DNA of 64,000 nucleotides from Gallionella sp. Its GTDB lineage: Bacteria; Pseudomonadota; Gammaproteobacteria; Burkholderiales; Gallionellaceae. The DNA is taken from contig JAQTYN010000005.1 of NCBI GenBank assembly GCA_028688275.1, positions 1 to 64,000 of the forward strand, written 5' to 3'. The position numbers and the translations under genes are program-made. Positions 51,734-54,358 of this stretch are shown here, in pieces (within the stretch, counting starts at the first letter, position 1; each line of letters starts with the position of its first letter). Under the pieces are notes generated by a model. It was not told the DNA's origin. It saw only the letters and a program-made list of their open reading frames with translations, and did not search any database.

Positions 51734-54358
51734 TTACGCCACGATGTTAATTAAACGACCTGGCACAACCACGATTTTCTTCGGCACCGCGCCTGCTAAA
51801 TGCTTTTGGACGGCTTCGTGAGCGAGTGCTAACTGTTCCAGCGTGGCTTTATCGGCGGTTTTAGACACGGTGATTTGCCCGCGCAACTTGCCATTGACTT
51901 GGATCATGATGTCGATTTCATCTTGCACCAACGCGCTGGCATCCGCTTGCGGAAACGCTTGATCGAGAATGTCGCTGTTGGGGCGCAAGGCTGACCACAA
52001 CGCGCTGCTGATATGCGGCACGATAGGGTTCAACATCAGTGCGATACCTTCCAATACTTCTTGCACTACCTGGCGCGCCACGTCGTCGGTTTCGTTGAAT
52101 TTACCTAATGCGTTGAGCAATTCCATATTCGCCGCAATGGCGGTGTTAAAGGTTTTGCGTCGCCCAATGTCGTCATCCACTTTTTGTATGGTGAGATGCA
52201 GTTGCATACGCAACGCTTTGGTCGCTGGACTTAATTCACCGCTGGTGTATGCCGCAACAATCCCTTGTGCCACATGGTCATGCCCCGCTTTCCATACGCG
52301 TTTCAGGAAGCGGAAACCGCCCTCTACCCCTGCATCCGACCATTCCAATTGTTGCTCTGGCGGGGCGGCAAACATCATAAACAGCCGTGCGGTGTCTGCG
52401 CCGTATTGGTCGATAATCGCTTGCGGATCCACGCCGTTGTTTTTGGATTTGGACATCTTTTCCGTGCCGCCCATAATGACGGGCAAGCCATCTTCACGCA
52501 GCGTAGCCCCTGTGGGGCGACCTTTTTCATCGGTCTGCATATCCACATCGGCGGGGTTAATCCACAATTTTTTGCCGTTGTCAGCTTCGCGGTAAAACGT
52601 CGGCGCAATCACCATGCCTTGGGTAATCAGGTTCTTAAAGGGTTCATCTCCCTTGACTAAGCCTTCATCTCGCATCAATTTGTGGAAAAATCGCGCATAC
52701 AGCAAATGCAAAATCGCGTGTTCAATTCCGCCAATGTATTGATCCACGGGCAACCAGTGATGCGCCCGTTCATCTACCAAGCCCGTGGTGCAATCAGGGC
52801 TGGTATAGCGCGCGTAATACCACGAAGATTCAGCAAAAGTGTCCATCGTGTCGGTTTCACGCCGCGCCGCGCCGCCGCATTGTGGGCAAGTGCATTCATA
52901 AAATTCAGGCATTTTAGCCAATGGCGACCCTGCGCCATCGGGCACGACATTTTCAGGCAACACCACAGGCAACTGATCTTCTGGCACCAATACATCGCCG
53001 CAACTTGGGCAATGAATCACAGGAATCGGGCAACCCCAATACCGTTGACGGGAAATACCCCAGTCGCGCAGACGGAATTGGATTTTTTTCTCGCCCAAAC
53101 CTAATGCGGCGAGATCCGTTGCAATGGCATCCACGGCTTGTTGATAATTCAAGCCGTCATATTTGCCAGAATGCAGGCAAATTCCGTCTTTAGTGGCATA
53201 CCATTCCGACCATGCTTCAGTGGAAAAAGCCGCCCTCTCCCCCTGCCCCTCTCCCGCAAGCGGGCGAGGGGAGATGACTTGTTTAATCGCCAAGCCATAT
53301 TTATTCGCAAACTCAAAATCGCGTTCGTCATGGGCTGGCACCGCCATCACCGCGCCGTCGCCATAGCCCATCAACACATAGTTGCCGATCCAAACGGGCA
53401 CTTGCTCGCCAGTCAGCGGATGTGTGACGGTTAATCCCGTGCCCATGCCCTTCTTTTCCATGGTCGCCATATCGGCTTCCGCTGTGCCGCCACGTTTACA
53501 TTCTTCAATAAATGTTAGCAAAGCGGGATTTTGTTGCGCCGCGTAAGTTGCCAAAGGATGCTCCGCTGCCACCGCGACAAATGTGACGCCCATAATCGTG
53601 TCGGCGCGAGTGGTATAGACCCACAGCTTTTCGGCTTTGCCTTCTAATTGATACGGAAACGCAAAACGCACACCTGCGCTTTTGCCGATCCAATTGGCTT
53701 GCATGGTTTTGACTTGTTCGGGCCAACCTGTCAGCGTGTCCAACCCCGACAACAACTCTTCGGCATATTGCGTGATGCGGAAAAAATACATGGGAATATC
53801 GCGTTTTTCCACCAACGCACCCGACCGCCAGCCGCGCCCGTCGATGACTTGCTCATTCGCCAACACGGTATGGTCAATCGGATCCCAATTCACGCTCGCG
53901 GTTTTTTGGTAAATCACGCCTTTTTTAAACAAGCGCGTGAACAACCATTGCTCCCAACGGTAATACTCTGGCGTACAGGTTTTAACTTCGCGTTCCCAAT
54001 CTATGCCTAAGCCCAGCGATTTAAGCTGTTGCTTCATATATTCAATATTGGAATAGGTCCATGCCGCAGGCGGTACATTATTTGCCAACGCGGCATTTTC
54101 AGCAGGTAGCCCAAACGCATCCCAACCCATAGGCTGCATCACGTTAAACCCCTTCATGCGGTGATAACGCGCCAACACATCGCCTATCGTATAGTTGCGT
54201 ACATGCCCCATGTGCAACTTCCCTGAAGGATAGGGGAACATGGACAAGCAGTAGTATTTGGGTTTGTTGCTGTCTTCATGGGCACGAAAAGCTTGTTGCG
54301 CATCCCAATGTTGTTGAGCAATTTGTTCGATGGCGGCGGGTTGGTAATTAGGCTGCAT
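51734..54358 (-). CDS. leuS: Leucyl-tRNA synthetase, with a REP insertion in the editing domain
   Basis: This 874-residue class I synthetase charges tRNA-Leu. [12 protein letters not shown] gives the HIGH motif, and [12 protein letters not shown] the KMSKS loop. The editing (CP1) domain keeps [17 protein letters not shown] with its essential aspartate. About 15 residues after it, roughly residues 362-376 ([13 protein letters not shown]) are encoded by the REP-type palindrome at 53232-53274. The frame is kept and flanking motifs are intact, so the protein is presumably functional with a longer surface loop. It heads the ten-gene minus-strand run. Confidence 0.96.
53232..53274. repeat. GC-rich REP-type palindrome inside leuS, copy 3
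   Basis: This copy differs from the one before parA at only about one in twenty positions. The arms CCCCTCTCCCGC and GCGGGCGAGGGG form a hairpin with an AA loop. The length allows it to be read through in the leuS frame without a stop. Confidence 0.88.

Follow-up and report, generated by a model that had tools for sequence, protein, structure and literature searches.

A palindromic repeat translated in frame within the LeuS editing domain of Gallionella sp. and its linkage to DUF559 nuclease genes

Described in-frame palindromes and the repeat in leuS

In-frame insertion of REP-like palindromes is already known, both as Rickettsia palindromic elements (RPE) and as intragenic REPs, the latter lying in frame in genes of several species, including those of tRNA synthetases (Di Nocera 2013; PMC3733652). 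Passages of the same source describe RPE as palindromes translated in frame in many housekeeping genes with the gene kept, and GTAG/CGTC REPs as short imperfect palindromes in many copies, some forming inverted doublets and some in frame (PMC3733652). The repeat described here resembles both; it is likened to RPE by insertion behaviour and not by sequence, in a different host, and it differs from GTAG/CGTC REPs in having no tag, in not lying at the RAYT loci of the genus and in flanking DUF559 genes instead. To our knowledge, no nuclease partner of RPE has been described. REPINs and REP-RAYT-REP units (REPtrons) share with the present repeat an inverted pair, which may or may not enclose a small nuclease gene, and dispersed solo copies, but the present unit has a DUF559 gene (PF04480, Vsr-like PD-(D/E)XK) and not an HUH/Y1 tyrosine enzyme. 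The present DUF559 genes belong to the Pfam family of Caulobacter VsrA, described as Vsr-like, with D and E conserved; flanking palindromic repeats are not mentioned for that family in the sections of the VsrA paper drawn on here (PMC12907096). The insert in LeuS is thus a further case of in-frame REP-like insertion.

The window is the whole stretch of DNA analysed, 64,000 nucleotides. Its relevant features are:

51734..54358, minus strand: leuS, leucyl-tRNA synthetase, 874 aa in one uninterrupted open frame
53111..53695, minus strand: LeuS editing domain PF13603, residues 222-416 (Pfam match; coordinates computed from residue numbers)
53318..53341, minus strand: VPAHDERD motif, LeuS residues 340-347 (read from the translation)
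53232..53274, plus strand: palindromic repeat copy in leuS, tail CCCTCTCCCCCTG and then hairpin CCCCTCTCCCGCAAGCGGGCGAGGGG, translated from the minus strand as a 14-residue peptide
19087..19128, minus strand: intergenic repeat copy between ORFs read as rsfS and rlmH (genome match, aligned copies)
63475..63516, plus strand: intergenic repeat copy between an rsmG-like ORF and parA (genome match, aligned copies)

The copy in leuS was an imperfect palindrome of 41-43 bp with inverted arms of 13 nt, in frame within PF13603. It encoded residues ~363-376, with 15 residues between it and VPAHDERD, which we take to be the editing-site motif of LeuS. Coordinates and the Pfam match agreed with the preliminary description, which had placed about 14 residues derived from a palindrome at this distance in the editing domain; its view that the essential leuS tolerates the insertion was likewise supported. 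A 38-mer pattern of the repeat occurred once in the window at ≤3 mismatches (0 in 100 shuffles), and a 12-mer core five times (0.26 expected). Folded alone as DNA, the leuS stretch was not unusually stable (z -1.04; 33/200 shuffles equally stable). Thermodynamic stability was therefore dropped as evidence, and the case for a repeat rests on the repeat family.

Compared with its own genome (G000), the 63-bp leuS stretch gave 48 matching rows at 45 places, three rows overlapping another on the opposite strand; as 40 of the 137 candidates from the first look were scored, the figure is a minimum. The aligned-copy set added two places, so that the genome has at least 47 copies. Identity among copies was 83-98% over the matched part, and over ~41 bp the leuS copy had 95-98% identity with copies that lie at unrelated loci. 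The leuS copy and that before parA, reported to be alike, both belong to this dispersed family. The reported two events in unrelated genes were found only in part: leuS was the one intragenic copy in the window, the other two being intergenic, and many intragenic copies lay elsewhere in the genome.

The hairpin core was matched in 43 of the 45 copies analysed. A mid-stem T.C mismatch was present in 40/43, and the closing pairs were compensatory, the outer in 41/43 (G-C 26, A-T 15, A-C 2) and the inner in 43/43 (C-G 38, T-A 5). All five close pairs of copies in the genome were inverted, with hairpins outward and gaps of 13-23 bp, the arrangement of a REPIN or MITE-like doublet. The repeat was free of stops in all six frames and is therefore translatable; 41% of shuffles were likewise stop-free, so this is unremarkable at the base composition. 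Matches to the 63-base query, which includes some leuS flank, were obtained in 35/41 genus genomes. Three copies (L149:2065-2105, L151:2065-2105 and L153:516-556) had a common downstream flank, GTCTGGGTTCAAATCCAGACATTCGGATC, resembling a tRNA T-arm, and may belong to a longer segment that was duplicated.

In-frame copies and DUF559 genes between inverted arms

Long spanning ORFs (≥180 aa) held 26 of the 45 copies. Fifteen of these lay in frame in the interior of a gene whose protein has Pfam support, 11 genes in all: leuS, valS, metG (2), gatB, purL, kdsB, a DEAH-helicase gene with DUF3418 (3), and genes for a DUF3683/FAD-oxidase, a hypE-like, a cusA-like and a TPS-domain protein (2). The other 11 rows lay at N- or C-termini or were without Pfam support, and may be untranslated. 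The gene at L167 had been a candidate PurM and that at L175 a candidate AcrB; they were reassigned as HypE-like and CusA-like. The 15 internal copies used four of the six frames (SPRPLAGEG 4, a 13-residue peptide 4, a 14-residue peptide 5, LSPSPSPxxGRGE 2); the naive probability of this bias was 0.0023, post hoc and of little weight.

Aligned with Neisseria gonorrhoeae LeuRS (PDB 6q89), LeuS showed the insert as a net gain of 9 residues. This is less than the 14 residues encoded by the repeat, so the insert is not a clean insertion into sister sequences. The ValS insert amounted to ~+10 residues against most relatives. A strict insertion footprint or target-site duplication was not obtained, because the host loops already vary. 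KdsB and GatB had gains at single points relative to solved structures, and PurL gained between residues 360 and 361 of chain 6lyk an insert longer than the repeat. In PurL (L141), the insert spanned ~39 residues (~371-409), more than one repeat, and was preceded by a second repeat-like peptide, PLVGEGTVAVG. Repeat-like peptides were also present in MetG of many genus members and, at the position that holds the copy in G000, in ValS of G013 and G024. At the same ValS site, several species (L184, L186, L187, L201, L202) had in common a six-residue gain of QDxGxxIED type, probably another small repeat family.

In MetG of two genus genomes (G010, L251; G029, L224), a whole DUF559 domain, with a repeat-derived peptide on either side, occupied the linker that precedes the tRNA-binding domain, all in one open frame (891 and 889 aa); Pfam confirmed the domain order for G010. 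A DUF559 unit was likewise in frame in hsdM of G093 (L271, 1-2127; N6_Mtase), with repeat-like peptides on both sides. The in-frame units in metG led to an inverted-arm test on DUF559 genes in general, in which the 150-bp upstream flank was compared with the reverse complement of the downstream flank, with sliding controls from the same locus. PF04480 was found in 27/41 genus genomes and 46/150 phylum genomes. All within-locus controls were beaten by 19/26 genus and 19/27 phylum loci, that is, by 38/53 in Pseudomonadota, and 15/53 failed. With flanks of at least 100 bp, the test was passed by 37/52 DUF559 loci, 0/30 loci of the control ParE, another small gene family, and 4/16 RAYT loci; arm scores of 20 or more were reached by 31/52 DUF559 loci and by none of the 16 RAYT loci. 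Linkage of the repeats to DUF559 is thus shown.

The arms had a common grammar across the phylum, with an outer hairpin followed by a YTRGGG-type tail facing the gene (28 loci, some unclear). The consensus of the present repeat was matched at E <0.01 in 13/30 genus DUF559 loci, and other DUF559 subfamilies had other arms. Arm similarity followed nuclease identity (Mantel r 0.71, 0/5000 permutations; the 18/26 genus loci with arms), also after removal of pairs more than 80% identical (r 0.67). Other subfamilies were flanked by hairpin repeats of CCTTCCCCC type (L241, L244, L264, L265) or CCCTCCC type (L249, L250, L254), as though every nuclease were paired with a repeat of its own.

One DUF559 gene of the own genome (G000:C107:178-495) matched PF04480 at 153 bits (curated cut-off 20.6). 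A full repeat lay 12 bp downstream of it, and the upstream arm was the tail part only, without the hairpin. The genome also has another DUF559 gene (C89) as well as a fragment (C112). In the aligned domains, D was kept in 53/53 and E in 52/53 (PD-(D/E)XK-type acidic residues, putatively catalytic), and H in 52/53; with D and E kept, the domains look like working nucleases. No account of DUF559 with flanking palindromic repeats, or as partner of a REP-like repeat, was found in the open-licence literature, and the parts of the RepRanger paper drawn on do not mention DUF559 (PMC12306157).

On balance, and only slightly so, it is probable that the LeuS insert represents one solo end of a mobile palindromic repeat, the fuller version of which runs from a repeat through a DUF559 gene to an inverted repeat. 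This proposal is based on the dispersal of the repeat and its in-frame position in ten or more genes besides leuS, on inverted arms, hairpin out and tail in, that bracket DUF559, on arm sequence that follows the nuclease subfamily, and on gene-less inverted doublets with the same orientation. A Vsr-like PD-(D/E)XK nuclease of the DUF559 family would nick the repeat hairpin, with its conserved mid-stem T.C mismatch, or the target, and new sites would then receive a solo end, a doublet or the complete unit, copied there by host repair or replication. Only in-frame copies in loops or linkers would be retained by selection, one such place being the loop in the editing domain of LeuS; the LeuS copy would be tolerated and persist there for two reasons, the lack of a stop in any of its frames and the prior variability of the loop.

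Association is not mobilisation, and DUF559 could be cargo. The linkage might have another cause: DUF559 might counter the repeats as a repair or defence factor, or the repeats might supply transcription and termination signals that suit a small gene. Linkage alone gives no direction, and Caulobacter VsrA has been proposed, in the sections of its paper drawn on, as a mismatch-repair-type nuclease (PMC12907096), both of which leave some room for such a cause. It is nevertheless unlikely, since the arms are inverted on both sides of the gene and track the nuclease subfamily, and since solo copies and doublets throughout the genome, together with whole units in metG and hsdM, suit mobility better.

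Distribution of the repeat against DUF559 and RAYT genes

In the phylum sample (150 genomes), 16/31 genomes with strong DUF559 had at least ten hits of the tail pattern, as had 5/119 others (Fisher p 2.5e-9); the five were G096, G113, G118, G153 and G203. Counted by genus, the association persisted (13/22 with DUF559, 4/66 without; p 6e-7). As a proxy this pattern is crude: matches to its reversed control were almost as frequent. In the same 150 genomes, ten or more hits of the pattern were not associated with RAYT (14/88 with, 7/62 without; p 0.48). Within the genus, repeat number was correlated with DUF559 and with RAYT counts alike (Spearman 0.63 each), which does not discriminate.

These results bear on a rival reading, in which a RAYT (Y1 transposase) moves the repeat as it would any ordinary REP, the LeuS copy is a by-product and DUF559 genes are passive cargo. 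Size, palindrome, stem mismatch, REPIN-like inverted doublets and in-frame insertion all fit REPs as described in passages of PMC3733652, and RAYT-family genes were present in 35/41 genus genomes, numerically in step with the repeat. Both matches in the own genome were weak, however (E 1.4e-7 and 7.4e-5), and a good match to the repeat consensus was found at 0/22 RAYT loci (best 13.2; perfect = 41), these being 20 of the genus hits plus the two of the own genome, 1.8-3.4 kb each. The consensus CCCTCTCCCCCWGCCCCTCTCCCRCAAGYGGGCGAGGGGAG, from the aligned copies, has neither a GTAG nor a CGTC tag, and the phylum-wide association with RAYT was not found. RAYT as the mobiliser is therefore disfavoured, and the reading as a whole is rather improbable. 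The term "REP-type" used in the preliminary description holds for size, palindrome and copy number, and not for the tag or for RAYT loci.

The LeuS loop in relatives and the meaning of the repeat family

The LeuS loop, its length counted as residues between landmarks, was readable in 31 of 37 genus genomes. Ten had the short form (80-81 residues) and 21 were longer than this basic form, with up to 132 residues, the extra residues being mostly of other origin than the present repeat. At the level of the order, all 16 loops read had 78-87 residues, and the repeat-type insert was absent from all 16; the same insertion in distant LeuS proteins, named beforehand as the outcome that would mark a conserved loop, was not seen. 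A non-sister species (G013) had the repeat family in the same loop, with the closely similar peptide SPRPQAGEGLGVRD. In a tree of 40 LeuS sequences with the loop columns removed, the two carriers, G000 and G013, fell in different clades (supports 0.955 and 0.994). Other loops had unrelated low-complexity or repeat-like peptides, for example IPPNPPFAKGGEKGG in L045, or longer inserts. The LeuS loop is a recurrent landing site, naturally variable in length.

Sister species (L045, L017, L018, L046, L122, L135) had other repeat-like peptides in the loop (PPNPPFAKGGEKGG; EKGEG...PFPLPSSxFS), and a related clade (L127, L129, L130, L131, L133, L134) an alignable, acidic, helix-like insert of ~50 residues. 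In several LeuS of the genus, Tblastn-type matches broke again near residue 571 (~568-577), suggesting a second variable insertion site.

A proofreading defect was set aside as the main reading, because loop length varies across the genus. The effect on proofreading that had been suggested at first is not indicated, 21 of the 31 visible loops being longer and often having unrelated inserts; impaired proofreading is possible, and little effect on catalysis and probably a small effect on editing would be expected. The recent activity that had been suggested is plausible, given the identity among copies and the presence of the repeat in the same loop of two non-sister species.

Were the LeuS segment a long-standing functional loop, kept by selection and no more than similar to the repeat, the closely similar peptide at the same loop in G013 would agree. 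This reading is very improbable, as copies elsewhere in the genome, at loci with no relation to leuS, are nearly identical in DNA, the short form is found in 16/16 order-level and 10/31 genus loops, and the two carriers belong to different LeuS clades. An assembly or chimera artefact, conceivable in a 112-contig draft where repeats provoke misjoins, is scarcely credible with leuS in a single frame with homology on both sides, similar in-frame copies in at least ten other genes, and copies at the same LeuS, ValS and MetG loops in other genomes.

The solo-end proposal extends to a broader one, put forward tentatively and with a little less than even confidence. Pseudomonadota would have widespread, apparently undescribed minimal mobile elements, each a DUF559 gene between outward hairpins with dispersed doublets and solo ends, in parallel to REP and RAYT. 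Stop-free ends, as in the family seen here, would let solo ends and even the whole unit be translated, as in LeuS, ValS, MetG and HsdM, so that surface loops of essential enzymes would lengthen repeatedly. The nuclease-linked repeat family is possibly a new class.

How REP-like repeats spread without RAYT becomes a testable question, with a cognate nuclease indicated by linkage, by co-variation of arm and nuclease and by co-occurrence. The repeat family is a source of odd 14-residue peptides in proteins, and essential aminoacyl-tRNA synthetases repeatedly take up mobile DNA at the same loops. A small DUF559 nuclease gene bracketed by similar repeats may be what spreads them, a mobilisation that we infer; if true, a role would be found for a very large number of small genes that bear no annotation beyond DUF559.
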